A stretch of DNA of 64,000 nt from Panopea generosa (Eukaryota > Mollusca > Bivalvia > Adapedonta > Hiatellidae). The notes below the pieces were generated by a model. It did not search any database, was not told the DNA's origin, and saw only the letters and a list, made by a program, of their open reading frames with translations. Positions 573 through 63,094 of this stretch are shown one piece after another; positions within the stretch are counted from its first letter, which is position 1; every line of letters starts with the position of its first letter. Both the position numbers and the translations under genes were made by a program. Where the stretch lies: contig CM055901.1 in assembly GCA_029582155.1 (NCBI GenBank), forward strand, positions 21,307,597-21,371,596, given 5' to 3'.

Positions 573-1700
573 TATATAACCATAATATCTCGGACAAATT
601 TTTGAACTGGCCAAATATGATTATTAATGTCAGTGTTATGGCCCTTGAAACATTAAAAAAGGCACTATTTGACCTTGTTTGAATGCTAGCACCCGCATTT
701 TTCTTTTGAACCCGGCCAAACTTGCACAGGAGTTATATAACCATAATATCTCGGAAAAGTGTTTGAACTGGCCAAATCAAAATATTGAAGTCAGAGTTAT
801 GGCTCTTGAAACATTAAAAAATACAATATGTGACCATGTGCACTCTAGCATTTTTCATTTGATTCTCATCAAACTTACACAATATTTATATAACCATGAT
901 ATCTGGGGACAAGTTCTTGAAACAGCTAAATTGCAATAATAATGTCCAGAGAAATGGCCCTTGAATTACCAAAAACTGCACTGATTGACCTTGTGTACAC
1001 TCTAGCACTAGCTTTTTTCTTGTGATTCTCATGAAACTTACAGTTGTTGTTTAACCATTATATCTGGACAAGTTCTCAAATTGGCTAAAGCGGGTAATTA
1101 ATGTCAGAGTTATGGCCTTTGACTTGTCAAAAAGTGCATTATGTTACCTTGTGTGCATTCTAGTACAAACTTACATGGTTGTTATATAATCAAAATATCT
1201 TGAACAATTTCTTGAACTGATCGAACTATTGTCTTAGTTATAGCCTTGAATCATAAAAAATGCACTTGTCGTTTCATATGATCCTCATTAGACTTACACA
1301 GTAGTTATAAAGTATAATATCAAGGTCAAGTTTTTGGCCATAACAGGTAATTGGTGTTGGTGTTACTGACTTTGAATTGTCAGAAATTGTGTTATTTTAC
1401 CTTGTATGACTTACTCTGTTATTATGTTACCATAATAAAATGAATGAGTTCTTGAACTGGCCAATCGGATTAACATTGTCAGACCTACGGCCCTTGTCAA
1501 AAATTGTGGGCTTTTGATGTTGTGTGCACTCTAGCACTCACACTTTATATTTGATCTTCATTAAACTTACACAGTTGTTATGTAATCCTAATATTTTGGA
1601 CAAATTCTTAAATTGGCCAAATTGGATAATTATTGTTGGGTGTTGTGGTCCTTGAATCAACAAAAATTGCATTATTTGAATTTATTGGCGTTTTGGCATT
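573..1700. repeat. Degenerate tandem repeat, about 130-160 bp units
   Basis: About seven diverged copies of a unit containing 'gttatataaccataatatct', 'gaactggccaaat', 'gtcagagttatggcccttga' and 'tgtgcactctagca'. Copies begin near 573, 733, 885, 1045, 1175, 1305, 1430 and 1575. No coding potential is seen. Confidence 0.75.
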
Positions 1701-10799: not shown

Positions 10800-10913
10800 C
10801 TACCACATTGAATAATCATTATCTTCATTAGCAAAAACAAAGAAATATCCCAGAATGGTTATAAAGACGACAATACTGCCAGCTGACACCAGTGCACATG
10901 CACCCCACTGTAT
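10800..10913 (-). CDS. LEPROT: LEPROT-like last exon with TM4
   Basis: Acceptor ctttatttcag, then [37 protein letters not shown] and TAG at 10802-10800. It parallels the human ending IKWGACGLVLAGNAVIF through FSWEQW. The acidic tail after TM4 and the terminal Trp are typical of animal members. Confidence 0.93.
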   Translation of the reverse strand: MQWGACALVSAGSIVVFITILGYFFVFANEDNDYSMW

Positions 10914-13900
10914 CTGAAATAAAGTATAATGAAGATTGTCATTTCATACACTCCAACACCGACTTACATATATATATATTTGTAATGATAATTGGCAGTA
11001 AATATTTTTACTTCCTCTTGAAATCTGATGACCTGTCCCTGTTAGCTCAGCAGTTCAGCATTTGACTATCAATCAAGGGGTCGTGAGTCCTAATCCTTGT
11101 CCAGTCACAGTCTCCATGATGATTAATATACAACATTGCATCCCATTGTCCATTGTCACCACTGATTCAAGTGGGAAAGTTATCAGTTACTTGCAGTAAT
11201 GGTGTACTTGAGTACTGGTTAACCTTTCAGGATCCCGGAAAGAGTGGCTATGTTAAATTTTCACCTGTTAGCCCTTGATGGCATAAAAATGACACTTAAT
11301 ATTCAAACAAACAAGCCAGGCCTGATTAGCTCAGTCGGTTATATGTCTGACTATCAATCTAGGGGTCGTGAGTTCGAATTCCCCGCCAGGCAACAGTCTC
11401 TGTTATGATTGATATTCGACATTGTGTCTCATTATCATTCATCTCTCACCACTGATTCAAGTGGAAAAGTTATCAGTTACTTGTGGAGACTGGGTGTGCT
11501 CGAGTACTGATTAATCCCAGGAAACAGTGGTTAGTTTTACTGATCGTCTGTTAGCCCTCGATGGCATAAAAATGAGCTAAATATTCAATAAATCAAACAA
11601 AAAACAATTCTTGATGGATTGTAGAATGATTAGCATGTTTTTTTTAATTTGACCAAAATCAGTTACCAATTACAAATAACCTATATGTAATGCCTATTAA
11701 TTAATGTCATATTTATTTAACATTTTTCTATGTGATATTTATTTAGTTCTTGTATTCAAATGGATAACATTGAATGTGCATAGAAATAAATCATGTCAAA
11801 TGTTTGTCATCATAGTCAATGCTTGCAAATACATATACAAGGGTATTGATAGAAGTGATAGAATCTCCCCTAACAAGTGTCTGACTGAGTAGCAGCTACA
11901 TTGTGTTTGTAAAGGGAAAATAAGTGAAAAGGGAAGATAATTCTGAGAATATTCATGATATTAATTTTGTTCTTGCACTCTACAATTCCACACCCTCTAT
12001 CCATGTTCCAAATCTCTTCGGATTCACTACACCGGACAAGCAAATTGAACCAAAAATAAGTAGAAAAGGAGAGATAAGTCTGCCATTATTCAAGATAGGG
12101 TTATGACTTTTTCTCTCTGTATTTTCACATTGCTCTCTATCAATTGTCCAATTTGCATTAGATTCCTTCACATAGTTTTGAAGATATGCTCCAGATAAGT
12201 ACTTACTTTGCAGCTCTGGCCAGTATTATAGGTACATGTAGATTATACCTACTGTTGCAGCTCTGGCCAGTACTATAGGTAGATTATGCTTACTGTTGCA
12301 GCTCTGGGCAGTACTATAGGTAGATTATGCTTACTGTTGCAGCTCTGGCCAGTACTATAGGTAGATTATGCTTACTGTTGCAGCTCTGGCCAGTACTATA
12401 GGTAGATTATGGTTACTGTTGCAGCTCTGGCCAGTACTATAGGTAGATTATGCTTACTGTTGCAGCTCTGGCCAGTACTATAGGTAGATTATGCTTACTG
12501 TTGCAGCTCAGCCAGTATTATAGGTAGATTAAACTTACTGTTGCAGCTCAGGCCAGTATTATAGGTAGATTATACTTACTGTTGCAGCTCTGGCCAGTAT
12601 TATAGGTAGTCCAAGACAGGATACAACAATCCCTGTTGTTAGAAACACACACAACTCCACACAGGCACTACTGGCTGAATCAAAACTGCCAGACAAACGT
12701 CGCTGAGATAATTGTTGGTACAGGAACAAGAACATAAAAAAATAATACAAACATCGGCCACCAGTTGCTGAAATGTAAAAATACATTTTTTTATGCATAT
12801 CAAAACATTGGTGAAAGATTACCAATACATACAGAATATCATGTAAGTGTCTGATATTATCAAATTAATCATGTGAGGCTTAGAAAAAAAAAACGAGCGT
12901 CATCCTTGTTGTTTTCGTGATGAACCTGATGAAGTTGATAATATCAGACACTAACATGGTATTCTCTTTATCATGTCAATATTTCTGGTTCACATTTTTT
13001 ATGAAATTGAAAATCAGCATCAAATTTTTTATACAGCCAGTAGATATTCTATTGAAGGTGATGGCATCAGTTTTATCTGGTCCTGGTCTGGAAGGCTGTT
13101 AAATACAAGAGAAATTAAACACCTTGTTTTACACATATTTATTGAAGTCAGTGAATTGTTTATTATAAATATCCAGGTAATTCATCATTAGGAATATATG
13201 TATTTTTTTAATGGGTTTTAACACCATTTTCAACACATTTCAATTTATATATTATGGCATATCCAGTTTTAGAAGTGAAGGAAGACCTCAGAATGAATCT
13301 AAGTAGAACCACTGTCCTTTTGCAAGTAACTGGTAAACTTTCTCACATAAAGTTTTTGGAGTGAGCGGGACTCAAACATACTGACCTTAGCCGTAAGAGG
13401 AAAGTGTTCTTGAGATGGCGCCTTTGACCACTCAGCCACAGAGGACCGTTATTAGGAATGTAATAAAACAAAAAAAAAATTAACTAACCAACTACGTGAC
13501 ATATACCCTGTGTAACAGCCAATTTCTTCACCCCTGCTAATTCTCTACCCGGGAAAGAAATCAGCCACCTAATTCTTTTACCAGAGGGGAACAGGATAAT
13601 TCGGTAGAAAGAACCAACTACCTGGGGAAACTTTTAGATGAGGGAATGAATTTGACTACTACACTGGTAATGGTTCATTAAGTATAGCCTCTTGAAATGT
13701 GGTAACCTGTCAAGGGGACCACAGACTGAGTACAAGATGACTTCATTATGTAATATCAATTATCAATAAGTATCAATCTGCTTCCTGTACATGCCGGATA
13801 TGAAGTGTGATACTTTACCAGTGTAATTAGGACAATGAGTGGGATATTTTCATTATACTTATTATAACAATACACATACATGTATTTAGTAAGTATTATA

Positions 13901-14510
13901 TGCAAGGAAAAAGAAATTCTTGGTCTTCCTTCTAAAAAATGATGGGGAAGACTCCAATTAAACATATTTAGTTTCTGTCAAGTTTTGGGACCTTCTAAAT
14001 GCTAAACCATTGGTATTTTAGCTTTAAATGATAATTACATGCTATATATTCATTTTAAACTATATTTCATTTTTTTTTAAAACACTGAAAATTCATTTTT
14101 TCCTAAAAGACAGCCTTTAAGGATAAACCAACATTCCAAGAGCCTTTTGCAACAAAGTATTGTACCATTTTTTTAGCTCATAGACTGATTTTCAGTGCCT
14201 AAACTGAAGATTTAAGAGGCGATAAATCATATTCTTATCAAACCTATTTTCTTACGCTAAACCGTAACTCCATAAAACCAAACTTTTTGCTAAGGTGAAC
14301 AGATGGATGGACATGTTGGAACCAGTATACCATTATGCAGGCGGTATACTGATCTGTTTATACAGCATTTAAATTATAGTTATACAAAAACAAACATGCC
14401 AAATAAATAATACTTATATTTAAAACTGTCCTTACTTGAACTGTTCTAGTGCACATCCTAACACCAACAAGGTAATACCCACAGCTGCAGCAAATGCCAG
14501 TCCTATCAAC
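10800..14510 (-). CDS. LEPROT: LEPROT/LEPROTL1/VPS55-family membrane protein (spliced, 3 firm exons)
   Basis: Small four-helix protein of endosome and Golgi membranes. In mammals LEPROT and LEPROTL1 lower surface levels of leptin and growth hormone receptors; yeast Vps55 works with Vps68 in late endosome to vacuole transport. Exons on the minus strand: 14510-14436, 12767-12580, 10913-10800, all GT-AG. Recognisable segments are [61 protein letters not shown] and the end [17 protein letters not shown] through DYSMW-stop. TM1 is in the first firm exon, TM2 and TM3 in the middle exon, TM4 in the last. Total length with a short first exon would be about 127-130 aa (human 131). Exon 12580-12767 carries one extra base. 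The first exon is uncertain. Family assignment is strong; LEPROT versus LEPROTL1 cannot be told. Confidence 0.9.
11031..11305 (+). mobile_element. tRNA-derived SINE, family A
   Basis: Head 'tgttagctcagcagttcagc' (A box) and a degraded B box, then the family body with 'accactgattcaagtggg' and end 'ttagcccttgatggcataaa'. It sits directly upstream of a second, better preserved copy, in the same orientation. Confidence 0.75.
11320..11595 (+). mobile_element. tRNA-derived SINE, family A, best copy
   Basis: Head reads 'gcctgattagctcagtcggt' with A box, then 'ggggtcgtgagttcgaattc' with B box, then body 'accactgattcaagtgg' and end 'ttagccctcgatggcataaa'. The acceptor arms partly pair (GCCTG/CAGGC) but the T stem does not, so this is a SINE head and not a working tRNA gene. 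It lies in the last intron of the LEPROT-like gene. Confidence 0.8.
11600..12205. other. LEPROT-like intron, no further feature recognised
   Basis: Intronic for the minus-strand gene. Short ORFs on both strands here show no family resemblance. Confidence 0.5.
12208..12610 (-). repeat. 41-bp tandem array made of the LEPROT-like exon 3 end and its 5' splice site
   Basis: Ten copies in all. The last (12582-12610) is the true exon end, coding [10 protein letters not shown] then GTAAGT. The nine others run into the intron. On the minus strand most intronic units repeat the exon-end sequence and 'gcaacAGTAAG', so most carry a copy of the donor (two have altered bases there). Unit starts are near 12208, 12254, 12295, 12336, 12377, 12419, 12460, 12501, 12541 and 12582. 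Reading past the true donor hits a stop within a few codons. Confidence 0.92.
12580..12767 (-). CDS. LEPROT: LEPROT-like exon with TM2 and TM3, apparent +1 frameshift
   Basis: Acceptor aacatttcag (read on the minus strand). The first frame gives [20 protein letters not shown]. After one extra base near 12703-12706 the next frame gives [38 protein letters not shown] and RAAT, followed by a perfect GTAAGT donor. The exon is 188 nt and 187 would keep the phase to the last exon. Both halves match the family, so the break is a single-base event. The last 30 nt of the exon seed the adjacent 41-bp array. Confidence 0.9.
13208..13448 (-). mobile_element. tRNA-derived SINE, family B
   Basis: On the minus strand the head is 'ggtcctctgtggctgagtgg', with the block 'ggcgccatctcaagaacac' and the body 'actcgctccaaaaactt', 'gtaactgg...aaaacaggat' and an end near 'aaaatggtgttaaaaccc'. 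It shares these blocks in order with 40868-41106 and 56236-56455. It lies in a LEPROT-like intron. Confidence 0.75.
13449..14435. other. LEPROT-like intron, no further feature recognised
   Basis: AT-rich intron sequence between a SINE and the TM1 exon. No conserved ORF is seen. Confidence 0.5.
14436..14510 (-). CDS. LEPROT: LEPROT-like exon with TM1
   Basis: Acceptor ttcttctaaag, then one base plus [24 protein letters not shown] and two bases of an Asn codon, donor GTAAG. This matches the family TM1 and the GCALE motif. The hydrophobic run is about 20 residues. Confidence 0.88.
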
Positions 14511-20710: not shown

Positions 20711-46578
<25,868 letters not shown>

Positions 46579-56459: not shown

Positions 56460-56948
56460 ACACTCATAATAATCTTTAATTTCATAACGCAGAGATCATG
56501 AACTGCATCTTACATAATTATGGAAAGTATGCATATATAGCATAAATAGTATAAACTGCATATATATGCCTCCAAGAAATATTTAAGTAGGTTTTTACTT
56601 GCAGGCAGAAGTTGTCAATGAATTTGATTCTACCTCACAGAAGTGTTTTAAGATTATGAATAGGTTCAGGTTATCTGCACATTTACCATTCTTATATTCA
56701 AGGTGAGGGTCACACTTACAAATTTAATGTTTAATTATGTCACAGCTCTGAATACTTACATGAAACATCAGAATTCTAATGTCAAGGCAAATGTTGAGGA
56801 AGGTCACATTCAACATTGATTTCTGTGTGTTCAAGGTCAATGTCGTACAATACTGATTGTATTTCAGGGTATACATGTATAACATCTGTAAGTAGAATTT
56901 TATTTATTAGGAATGATAATAGTCAAACACTGACTGTGGCATAATGTT
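56460..56948. other. No gene recognised before the large array
   Basis: Includes 'caaggtcacacttacaa'-like text similar in style to the 2.0-2.9 kb repeat, but no clear unit. Confidence 0.4.
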
Positions 56949-59900
56949 ACATGTTTTGTCATGCCCATTTTGTACTGTGATATGTCAGGTACTTACTACA
57001 TTGTGTACTGTAACATGTCCTGTCATGCCCATTTTGTACTGAGATGTTTTAGTACTTACTACATTGTGTACTGCAACATTTCCTGTCATGCCCATTTTGT
57101 ACTGTGATGTGTCTAGTACTGACTACATTGTGTACTGTAACATGTCCTGCCATGCCCATTTTGTATTGTGATATGTCTAGTACTAACTACATTGTGTAAT
57201 GTAACATGTCCTGTCATGCCCATTTTGTACTGATATATGTCCAGTACTTACTACATTGTGTACGGTTATATATCCTGTCATGCCCATTTTGTATTGTGAT
57301 GTGTCCAGCACTTACTACATTGTGTACTGTAACATGTCCTGTCATGCCCATTTTGTACTGTGATATGTCCAGTACTTACTACATTGTGTATGGTTATATA
57401 TCCTGTCATGCCCATTTTGTACTGTGATGTGTTGAGTACTTACTACATTGTGTACTGTAATATGTCCTGTCATGCCCATTTTGTACTGTGATATGTCCAG
57501 TACTTACTACATTGTGAACCGTTATATGTCCTGTCATGCCCATTTTGTATTGTGATTTGTCCAGTACTTACTACATTGTGTACTGTAACATGTCTTATAC
57601 TGTGATGTGTCCCATACTACTACATTGTGTACTGTAACATGTCTTGTCATGCCCATTTTGTACTAGTGATATGTCCAGTACTTACTACATTGTATACTGT
57701 AATATGTCCTGTCATGCCATTTTTGTACTGTGATGTGTCTAGTACTGACTACATTGTGTACTGTAACATGTCCTGTCATGCTGATTTTGTATTATGATGT
57801 GTCTAGTACTTACTACATTGTATACTGTAACATGTCTTGCACTGTGATGTGTTCCGTATTATACATTGTTAACTGTAACATGTCCTATCATGCCCCTTTT
57901 GTACTGTGATGTGTCTAGTACTTACTACATTGTGTACCAATTATATGTCCTGTCATGCCCATTTTGTACTGTTATGTGTCTAGTACTAGCTAAATTGGGT
58001 ACTGTAACATATCTTGTACTGTGATGTGTCTAGAACTTACTACATTGTCTACTGTAATATGTCCTGTCATGCCCATTTTGTACTATGATGTGTACTAGTA
58101 CTGACTACATTGTGTACTGTAACATGTCCTGGCATGCCAATTTTGTACTGTGATGTGTATAGTTCTTACTACATTGTGTATTGTAACATGTTTTGTACCG
58201 TGATATGTCTAGTACTTACTACATTGTGTACTGTGACATGTCCTGTCATGCCCATTTTGTACTGTGATGTGTCTAGTACTTACTACATTGTGTACTGTAA
58301 CATGTCTTATATTGTGATGTGTCTAGTATTTACTACATTGTCTACTGTAATATGTCCTGTCATGCCCATTTTGTACTATGATGTGTACAGTACTGACTAC
58401 ATTGTGTACTGTAACATGTCCTGTCATGCCCATTTTGTACTGTGATGTGTCTAGTACTTACTACATTGTGTACTGTAACATGTCTTATATTGTGATGTGT
58501 CTAGTATTTACTACATTGTGTACTGTGACATGTCCTGTCATGCCTATTTTGTACTGTAATGTGTCTAGTACTTAGTATATTGTATACTGTGTCTAGTACT
58601 TACTACATCATGTACTGTACCATGTCCTGTTATGCCCATTTTGTACTGTGATGTGTCCAGTACTTACTACATCATGTACTGTAATATGTTTTGTCATGCC
58701 CATCTTGTACTGTGATGTGTCTAGTACTTACTACATCATGTACTGTAACATGTCTTGTCATGCCCATTTTATACTGTGATGTGTCTAGTACTTACTACAC
58801 TGTGTACTGTGACATGTCCTGTAATGCTTATTTTGTACTTTGTTGTGTCTAGTACTTAGTATATTGTGTACTGTAGAATGTCTTGTCATGCCCATTTTGT
58901 ACTGTGATGTGTTTAGTATTTACTACATCATGTACTGTAACATGTTTTGTCATGCCCATTTTGTACTGTGGTGTTTCTAGGTACTTACTACATCATGTAC
59001 TGTAACATGTTTTGTCCATCTTGTACTGTGATGTGTCTATTACTAACTACATTGTGTACTGTAACATGTCTTGTAATGCCCATCTTGTACTTGTACTGTG
59101 ATGTGTCTAGTACTTACTACATCATGTACTGTAACATGTCCTGTCATGCTCATTTTGTACTGTGATGTGTCTAGTACTCTCTACATTGTGTACTGTAACA
59201 TGTCTTGTCATGCTCATGTTGTACTGTGTTGTGTCTAGTACTTGCTACATTGATGTACTGTAACATGTCTTCTACTCTGTGTGTTTAGTACTTACTCCAT
59301 TGTGTACTGCAACATGTCTTGTACAGTGTGCATCTAGAACTTACTACATTGTGCACTGCAACATGTCTTGTACTGTGATGTGTCTAGAACTTACTACATT
59401 GTGTACTGTAACATGTCTTGTACTGTGATGTGTCTAGAACTTACTACATTGTGTACTGTTACATGTCTTGTATTGTGTGCATCTAGAACTTACTACATTG
59501 TGTACTGTAATATGTCTTGCACTCTGTGTGTCTAGTACTTACTACACTGTGTACTGTTACATGTCTTGTACTCTGTGTGTCTAGTACTTACTACACTGTG
59601 TACTGTTACATGTCTTGTACTCTGTGTGTCTAGTACTTACTACACTGTGTACTGTTACATGTCTTGTACTCTGTGTGTCTAGTACTTACTACACTGTGTA
59701 CTGTTACATGTCTTGTACTGTGTGTGTCTAGTACTTACTACATTGTGTACTGCAACATGTCTTGTACTGTGATGTGTCTAGAACTTACTACATTGTGTAC
59801 TGTAACATGTCTTGTACTGTGTGCGTCTAGAACTTACTTCATTGTGTACTGTAATATTTTTTGTACTGTGATGTGTCTAGTACTAACTACTTTGTGTACT

Positions 59901-62866
59901 GCAACATGTCTTGTATTGTGTGTGTCTAGTACTTACTACATTGTTTACTGCAACATGTCTTGTACTGTGATGTGTCTAGAACTTACTACATTGTGTACTG
60001 TAACATGTCTTGTACTGTGTGTGTCTAGAACTTACTACATTGTGTACTGTAATATTTTTTGTACTGTGATGTGTCTAGTACTTACTTCTTTGTGTACTGT
60101 AATATGTCCTGTCATGCCAATTTTGTACTGTGATGTGTCTAGAACTTACTACAGTGTTTACTGTAATATGTCTTGCACTCTGTGTGTCTAGTACTTACAA
60201 TAGTGTTTACTGTGATATGTCTTGTACTCTGTGTGACTAGTACTTACTACATTGTGTACTGTAACATGTCTTGTATTGTGTGTGTCTAGTACTTACTACA
60301 TTGTGTACTGTGATATGTCTTGCACTCTGTGTGTCTAGTACTTACTACTGTGTTTACTGTAATATGTCTTGTACTCTGTGTGTCTAGTACTTACTACATT
60401 GTGTACTGTTACATGTCTTGTATTGTGTGTGTCTAGTACTTACTACATTGTGTACTGTAACATGTCTTGTACTGTGTGTGTCTAGTACTTACTACATTGT
60501 GTACTGCAACATGTCTTGTACTGTGATGTGTCTAGAACTTACTACATTGTGTAACAGTAACATGTCTTGTATTGTGATGTGTCTAAGTACTTACTACATT
60601 GTGTACTGTGATATGTCTTGCACTCTGTGTGTCTAGTACTTACTACATTGTGTACTGTAACATGTCTTGTACTGTAGTGTGTCTAGTACTTACTACATTG
60701 TGTACTGCAACATGTCTTGTACTGTGTGTGTCTAGTACTTACTACCTTGTGTACTGTAATATTTTTTGTACTGTGATGTGTCTAGTACTTACTACTTTGT
60801 GTACTGTAATATGTCCTGTCATGCCCATTTTGTACTGTGATGTGTCTAGAACTTACTACATTGAGTACTGCAACATGTTTTGTACTGTGATGTGTCTAGA
60901 ACTTACTACATTGTGTAACGTAACATGTCTTGTACTGTGTGTGTCTAGTACTTACTACCTTGTGTACTGTAATATTTTTTGTACTGTGATGTGTCTAGTA
61001 CTTACTACTTTGTGTACTGTAATATGTCCTGTCATGCCCATTTTGTACTGTGATGTGTCTAGAACTTACTACATTGAGTACTGCAACATGTTTTGTACTG
61101 TGTGTGTCTAGTACTTACTTCATTGTGTATAGTAATATGTCATATACTGTGTGTGTCTAGTACTTACTACATTATGTACTGTAATATGTCTTGTACTGTG
61201 ATGTGTCTAGTACTTATTACATTATGTACTGTAACATGTCTTGTCATGCCCATTTTGTACTGTGATGTGTCTAGAACCTACTACATTTTGTACTGTAACA
61301 TGTCTTGTACTGTGATGTGTCTAGTACTTACTACATTGTGTACTGTAATATGTCCTGTCATGCCCATCTTGTACTTAGATGTGTCTAGTACTTTCTACAT
61401 CATGCACTGTTATATGTTCTGTCATGCCCATTTTGTACTGTGATGTGTAGTACTTACTAATTTGTGTACTAATATGTCCTGTCATTCCCATTTTGTGCTG
61501 TGATGTGTCTAGTACTTACTACTTTGTGTACTGTAATATGTCCTGTCATGCCCATTTTGTACTGTGATGTGTAGTACTTACTAATTTGTGTACTGTAATA
61601 TGTCCTGTCATGCCCAATGTACTTACTACATTGAGTTCTTAACATGTCCTGTCATGCCCATTTTGTACTGTGATGTGTCTTGTACTTACTACATGGAGTA
61701 CTGTTACATGTCTTGTACTGTGAGTGTCTAGTACTTACTAAATTGTGTACTGCAACATATCTTGTCATGCCCATTTTGTACTGTGATGTGTCTAGTACTT
61801 ATTACATTGAGTAGGATAACATGTCTTATACTATGTGTGTCTAGTATTTACCACATTGTGTACTGCAACATGTCCTGTCATGCCCATTTTGTGCTGTGAT
61901 GTGTCTAGGTACTTACTACAGTGTGTACTGTAATATGTCCTGTTATGCCCATTTTGTACTGTGATGTGTCTAGTACTTACTAATTTGTGTACAGTAACAT
62001 GTCCTGTCATGCCCAAGATACTTACTACATGGAGTACAGTAACATGTCTTGTTCTGTGAGTGTCTAGTACTTACTACATTGTGTACTGCAACATATCTTG
62101 TCATGCCTATTTTGTACTGTGATATGTCTAGTACTTATTACATTGAGTATTGTAACATGTCTTATACTGTGTGTGTCTAGTACTTACTACATTGTGTACT
62201 GCAACATGTCTTGTCATGCCCATTTTGTACTGTGATGTGTCTAGTACTTACTACATTGTGTACTGCAACATGTCCTGTCATGTCCATTTTGTACTGTGAT
62301 GTTTTAGTACTTACTACATTGTGTACTGCAACATTTCCTGTCATGCCCATTTTGTACTGTGATGTGTCTAGTACTTACTACATTGTGTACTGAAACATGT
62401 CTTGTCACGTCCATTTTGTACTGTGATGTGTCTAGTACTTAATACATTGTGTACTGTAACATGTCTTGTACTGTGATATGTCTAGTAATTTCTACATTTT
62501 GTACTGTAATATGTCCTGTCAGTGCCCATTTTGTACTGTGATGTGTCTAGTATTTACTACATTGAGTACTGTAACATGTCCTCTCATGCCCATTTTGTAC
62601 TGTGATGTGTATAGTACTTACTACATCATGTACTGTAACATGTATTGTACTCCGATGTGTCTAGCACTTACTACATTGTGTACTGTAACATGTCTTGTCA
62701 TGCCCATTTGTTCTGTGATGTGTCAAGTACTTACTACATCATGTACTGTAACATGTTTTGTCATGCCCATTTTGTACTATGATGTGTCTAGTACTGACTA
62801 CATTGTGTACTGTAACATGTCTTGTCATGCCCATTTTGTACTATGATGTGTCTAGTACTCTCTACA
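56949..62866. repeat. 5.9-kb minisatellite with long (about 64 bp) and short (about 49-51 bp) units
   Basis: Core 'tgtgatgtgtctagtactta' + 'ctacattgtgtactgtaaca' + 'tgtc', followed in long units by 'ctgtcatgcccattttgtac' and in short units by 'ttgtac' alone. Long units dominate 56949-59250, short ones 59260-60780, and the rest is mixed. A run at 59510-59720 has near-identical 49-bp units. About 100 copies. Plus-strand ORFs inside (up to 175 codons) are repeats of one peptide and not genes. Confidence 0.95.
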
Positions 62867-63094
62867 TATTTTATTTGTCCTCTACTTTAGCAACTTCTGA
62901 AATTTGATGTTTCTTATACTTCGGCATTTAATGACATCATTAGGCATATGTTACGGTATAATGTGTATTCATATAATGTTGTGTGGCCTGTATTTAGGCT
63001 AATTATACTTTGTGTCTTGTAAGTAGTCATAGTCAATGGTATGCTGAGGTACTCATACATATATTTTGATGTTATGTTTCTTGTAATTGAGCAT

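Follow-up and report, generated by a model that had tools for sequence, protein, structure and literature searches.

Minisatellite-like tandem duplications of exon-intron boundaries, at either the 5′ or the 3′ side, have been described in amphioxus under the name of mirages. Mirages occur in the genes for Adh3, the globins BflGb6 and BflGb9, troponin C, and PGBD5, with units of 10 to 72 bp in Adh3, and their copies show length instability, keep AG or GT in many cases, and reportedly leave splicing undisturbed (PMC3087553; PMC3902484). The BflGb6 mirage is described as a homogenized core whose edges are excluded from homogenization (PMC3087553). In human IFI6 (6-16), a minisatellite supplies several splice donors, those of two downstream units being reportedly in use (PMC4526556). 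New introns have also been linked to human exon-intron boundary repeats and to a potato gene (PMC2812944; PMC4974935), and three works propose or report intron gain from tandem repeats at such boundaries (PMC3087553; PMC4974935; PMC2812944).

We analyzed a 64,000-nucleotide stretch of the Panopea generosa genome (GCA_029582155.1, contig CM055901.1, positions 21,307,597 to 21,371,596 of the forward strand), referred to here as the window, in which an array of 41-bp units lies where exon 3 of a LEPROT/Vps55 gene meets intron 3. A preliminary description of the window had held that minisatellites do not normally duplicate a functional 5′ splice site. Repeats that do so are in fact a described class, the mirages (PMC3087553; PMC3902484), and several donors are likewise supplied by the IFI6 minisatellite. 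The LEPROT array is a good further example of this already known mirage type and not a new type. We interpret it as a mirage minisatellite, an expanded exon 3/intron 3 boundary from which the first donor is mostly used, and we give this reading a probability of roughly 0.78, which applies mostly to the class and origin of the array. Our literature search returned no mollusc LEPROT case, although one may still have been published, and the phrase "mirage minisatellites" was not found among the matches listed in one such search.

The LEPROT/Vps55 gene and its third exon

The gene had been called LEPROT-like from its sequence, and profile searches bore this identity out. All four LEPROT exon pieces matched Pfam PF04133 (Vps55), one of them above the curated cutoff on its own, and exons 2 to 4 joined as a conceptual protein, with an X placed at a break in exon 3, matched profile positions 1 to 120 of 120 (E 7.3e-36). 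We placed the exon boundaries by reading frame, splice consensus, and family match (Table 1). A search of the 1.47-Gb assembly yielded no second LEPROT copy with an E value below 1, the two other matches having E values of 2.5 and 3.8. Searches for LEPROT exon 1 by four simple patterns found nothing.

Table 1. Positions in the window of the LEPROT/Vps55 exons, intron 3, and the units of the boundary array
Feature	Positions	Strand	Details
LEPROT/Vps55 exon 2	14436-14510	minus	Donor CAA|GTAAGG; PF04133 E 1.2e-4, just under the curated cutoff alone
LEPROT/Vps55 exon 3	12580-12767	minus	188 nt; one-base frame break near 12703; PF04133 matched by both halves
LEPROT/Vps55 intron 3 (putative boundaries, from frame and family match)	10914-12579	minus	Starts with the array; 3′ end TTTATTTCAG
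LEPROT/Vps55 exon 4, coding part to stop	10800-10913	minus	PF04133 E 2.8e-5, just under the curated cutoff alone
Array unit 1	12569-12609	minus	Authentic exon end (12609-12580) plus donor ACA|GTAAGT (GT at 12579-12578)
Array units 2-10, within intron 3	12195-12568	minus	Later donors at 12538, 12498, 12457, 12416, 12375, 12334, 12293, 12252, and 12206

The uninterrupted reading frame of the LEPROT/Vps55 family is broken in exon 3 as assembled: the two halves of the exon are in different frames, with one extra base located within 12700-12706 of the minus strand. This break was absent from the preliminary account of exon 3. Since the locus is the sole LEPROT found in the assembly, the extra base may come from faulty assembly, may be allelic, or may indicate that the gene is damaged. 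The break weakens arguments built on protein function, and owing to it even splicing from the first donor gives no full protein from the present assembly; the anatomy of the array is not altered by it. We considered a shorter exon 3 beginning after the AG at 12704-12703 and rejected it by hand and by frame-0 translation, as its phase was mismatched to exon 2, whose last two bases begin a codon, and its frame ran into a stop. Rescue of the frame by a later donor was likewise rejected, as the broken frame (frame 1) reaches a stop well upstream of the array.

The presence of a frame break in the only LEPROT locus found, together with the failure to find exon 1 by simple patterns, would fit the case that the gene or allele were a decaying pseudogene in which the array grew across a donor that was no longer needed. 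However, apart from the break, exons 2 to 4 match the family well, their splice sites are consensus-like, and the end of the gene is intact. An assembly error or an allele would equally give a single extra base. We therefore regard decay of the gene as unlikely, if by no means negligible. Such decay would be compatible with the array being a mirage and would alter only the reason for which the array is tolerated.

Anatomy of the boundary array

Tandem Repeats Finder placed an array at 12202-12609 with a period of 41, 9.9 copies, and 93% matches, and we were able to align 10 units on the minus strand from 12609 to about 12195. The repeat unit consists of 30 nt of exon (CTA CCT ATA ATA CTG GCC AGA GCT GCA ACA) and 11 nt of intron. 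These findings agree with the preliminary description in that 10 tandem units are built from the exon end and its donor, with unit 1 being the exon end itself. The donor had been given as AG|GTAAG and required correction to ACA|GTAAG, since the join to exon 4 (ATA CAG TGG; LARAAT|IQWGAC) requires A as the last exon base.

The units form a uniform core with divergent edges. Units 4, 6, and 7 are identical and units 5 and 8 are one column off them, and the edge units 1, 2, 3, 9, and 10 diverge, unit 10 by 10 to 12 columns. Unit 3 is 40 bp long, 6 bp are inserted between units 9 and 10, and the last unit passes into unique sequence after GTAAGTACTTATC. The array sequence is confined to this boundary: CAACAGTAAG occurred seven times in the window, each time inside the array, compared to a mean of 0.22 expected from 100 shuffles, and a search of the whole assembly with a 31-base piece of the unit, allowing up to three mismatches, found eight sites, all in the LEPROT array and none beyond it.

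A repeat of this kind could arise as an artifact of assembly, and a mirage that was mis-assembled in a genome draft has been reported for amphioxus (PMC3087553). The LEPROT units, however, differ from each other by individual substitutions and indels, and the array spans only about 0.4 kb in a window where other arrays are common. We consider an artifact extremely improbable.

The array has three of the hallmarks by which mirages were described. Tandem repeats cross an exon-intron boundary, which we placed by frame and family match, and include its splice site; one authentic unit, which is coding and joins exon 4 in frame, is accompanied by intronic copies; and a homogenized core is flanked by excluded edges. 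The LEPROT units thus resemble amphioxus mirages in spanning the boundary, in keeping the splice signal, in having a similar unit length, and in their core and edge pattern. In contrast to the amphioxus cases, the array is in another gene and in a much larger genome (1.47 Gb), and it presents 10 units at a donor. Instability and splicing were examined in amphioxus, whereas the LEPROT array is known from the sequence of one assembly. Taken together, the 10 aligned units, the BflGb6-like core and edge pattern, the uniqueness of the unit in the assembly, and the richness of the window in minisatellites argue for the mirage reading.

The tandem duplication of a boundary with its splice signals is also common to the LEPROT array and to cases of intron gain, and both an AG and a GT are contained within the unit, with TATAG upstream of GT in units 4 to 9. 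A new intron or exon might accordingly be viewed as arising here by tandem duplication, as has been proposed or reported elsewhere in the works cited above. However, the stretch leading up to the AG does not look rich in pyrimidines, and a known intron position is simply extended. Furthermore, the intron-gain works report transcripts in support of their new introns or spliced forms (PMC4974935; PMC2812944), in contrast to the LEPROT case, which consists of genomic sequence. We judge that a nascent intron or exon has next to no probability at this locus.

A separate large composite array was observed at 56945-62867. Its minus strand holds the extended donor consensus GTAAGTACT in 54 exact copies. 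The window contains 55 occurrences of GTAAGTACT compared to 0.73 expected, and the one outside 56945-62867 is in unit 10 of the LEPROT array.

Ten donors and their coding outcomes

All nine extra donors keep GT, and seven of them (copies 2, 3, 4, 6, 7, 8, and 10) keep GTAAG, so that the earlier observation of a usable-looking donor in most extra copies is supported. The donor hexamers are GTAAGT in units 1, 2, and 10, GTAAGC in units 3, 4, 6, 7, and 8, GTAACC in unit 5, and GTAGGT in unit 9. Pairing with the U1 5′ end, which we confirmed in a U1 gene of the same assembly, gave duplex energies of -7.5 for donor 1, -5.6 for donor 2, -4.5 for donors 3, 4, 6, 7, and 8, -1.9 for donor 5, -7.2 for donor 9, and -7.0 for donor 10. 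On a donor matrix, whose scores are rough because it was built on approximate frequencies, donor 10 topped all 10. Donor 1 therefore does not stand out by either U1 pairing or the donor matrix. The preliminary description had suggested that U1 may be spread over the copies and that the cell must choose the first donor; both ideas are conjectural. Local pairing did not single out donor 1 either, as its probability of being unpaired was 0.04 versus 0.00 to 0.11 for the other nine. We also considered a hairpin that would mask the later donors, for which a TACTG...CAGTA stem is possible, and rejected it since the three units folded, out of 10, did no better than shuffles (z of +0.8 to +1.5).

As a separate observation, U1 RNA genes are clustered in the assembly. 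Among the 42 matches listed, 19 genes lie about 2 kb apart on contig C2 (1137285-1176714), and 9 lie about 1 to 5 kb apart on contig C5 (44282540-44303106).

The donors differ in their coding outcomes. Donor 1 joins exon 4 in frame to give LARAAT|IQWGAC...SMW followed by the stop, as in the family, and it is the only one of the 10 with an open frame into exon 4. Each of the nine later donors leads through six codons past the true donor (VSIIYL) to a stop, which precedes the junction by 20 nt for donor 2 and by up to 352 nt for donor 10, and use of any of them would drop the last hydrophobic stretch of LEPROT. The truncation foreseen in the preliminary description thus holds for all nine. The accompanying argument that 41 is not a multiple of 3 is correct for the unit length but does not extend to every donor, as the 40-bp unit 3 and the 6 bp between units 9 and 10 bring donors 3, 6, and 9 (81, 204, and 327 nt) into frame when only length is considered.

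Retention of GT in all extra units and of GTAAG in most, and the nearly equal U1 pairing of donors 1, 9, and 10, may be taken to suggest that the array is a bank of competing donors that would lower or tune the level of full-length LEPROT. The LEPROT repeat is like that of human IFI6 in offering multiple donors at an exon end, and IFI6 provides a precedent for repeat-borne donors in use (PMC4526556). The alternative donors of IFI6 lead to other isoforms, whereas the later donors of LEPROT lead to the early stop described above. However, the GTAAGC of the core units pairs more weakly with U1 (-4.5 against -7.5), and amphioxus mirages reportedly splice normally (PMC3087553; PMC3902484). A regulatory bank of donors is, in our analysis, quite unlikely.

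We instead favor a model for the mirage in which 41 bp across the junction of exon 3 with intron 3 were probably duplicated in tandem and then expanded through ordinary minisatellite turnover, presumably by slippage or unequal exchange, with the extra units lying in the intron. The exon-proximal donor would be used in most transcripts, given that it is the earliest to be transcribed and lies next to the remainder of the exon. A later donor would occasionally be used, to yield a protein that lacks the last hydrophobic stretch or an mRNA subject to decay. Taken by itself, predominance of the first donor is somewhat more likely than not. The open frame into exon 4 from donor 1 alone and the undisturbed splicing reported for published mirages speak for the model. 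Counting against it, no clear advantage in strength separates donor 1 from donors 2, 9, and 10, and predicted pairing does not favor it. The reported use of downstream repeat donors in IFI6 and the frame break in exon 3 also count against the model as a whole. The array itself is probably functionless and tolerated because the first donor survives or because the allele or gene was already damaged.

Boundary repeats in a minisatellite-rich genome

We surveyed 63 exon loci, taken as the best 30 of 136 PF00069 matches, all 21 PF00004 matches, and the best 12 of 85 PF00153 matches, each with 1.5-kb flanks. Two of these loci (L050 and L056) are inside the window, some loci are neighbors or paralogues, and arrays at exon ends outside the profile match would be missed. 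Arrays with a period of 10 or more make up 21.6% of the window. In the survey, arrays covered 8.0% of the flanks (15070 of 189000 bases) and 0.24% of the coding matches (70 of 29496), and in two arbitrary 5-kb stretches arrays made up 0% and 52% of the sequence. The LEPROT array fits a genome filled with minisatellites, as indicated by this coverage in the window, the flanks, and the arbitrary stretches. An array of three or more copies was observed at 27 of the 63 loci and within 300 bases of the match at 8 of them.

Exon sequence was repeated in the same-strand flank at 2 of the 63 loci (L031 and L065), and the LEPROT locus (L001) passed as a positive control. At L031 (contig C11; locus positions 1340-1602, minus strand), a kinase-like exon has its final ~120 nt, including GTAAGTAAT, in two tandem copies with 93% identity. 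This duplication could be mirage-like or could be a duplicated stop-codon region. Because the frame ends in TAG at the boundary, what looks like a donor there could instead be a stop codon, and we thus describe L031 as mirage-like only. L065 was rejected as a mirage, its repeat being a dispersed 37-nt piece at 86% identity. Since one of the 63 other loci is mirage-like, the LEPROT case may not be unique in the genome.

Other features were noted alongside the survey. At L016 (contig C7; locus positions 2-1460), 48.5 copies of a 32-bp unit start ~20 nt beyond the likely donor of a kinase exon, inside the intron, with units that read AGGTAAGTGA when taken on the strand opposite the gene. In the window, AAA-ATPase (PF00004) exon matches were observed on the plus strand at 32834-33118, with three stops within the match, and at 38474-38665, and a Walker-A-like piece was observed at 31179-31313.

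The LEPROT array in itself is an expected product of minisatellite growth. It offers a natural setting in which to test how the splicing machinery selects a single 5′ splice site out of 10 near-identical neighbors. Since the full C terminus of the family can come from the first donor alone, the readout of splicing would be straightforward to interpret. A broader and very unlikely proposition is that exon ends are often caught in growing arrays in this genome, as at LEPROT exon 3 and perhaps at L031 and L016, so that mirages would keep supplying competing splice sites and new introns in genomes other than that of amphioxus, and that the number of donors would set the amount of full-length LEPROT. 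Our findings suggest that mirage repeats, described in amphioxus, also occur in another minisatellite-rich genome, and mirages beyond amphioxus bear on how introns shift and arise.
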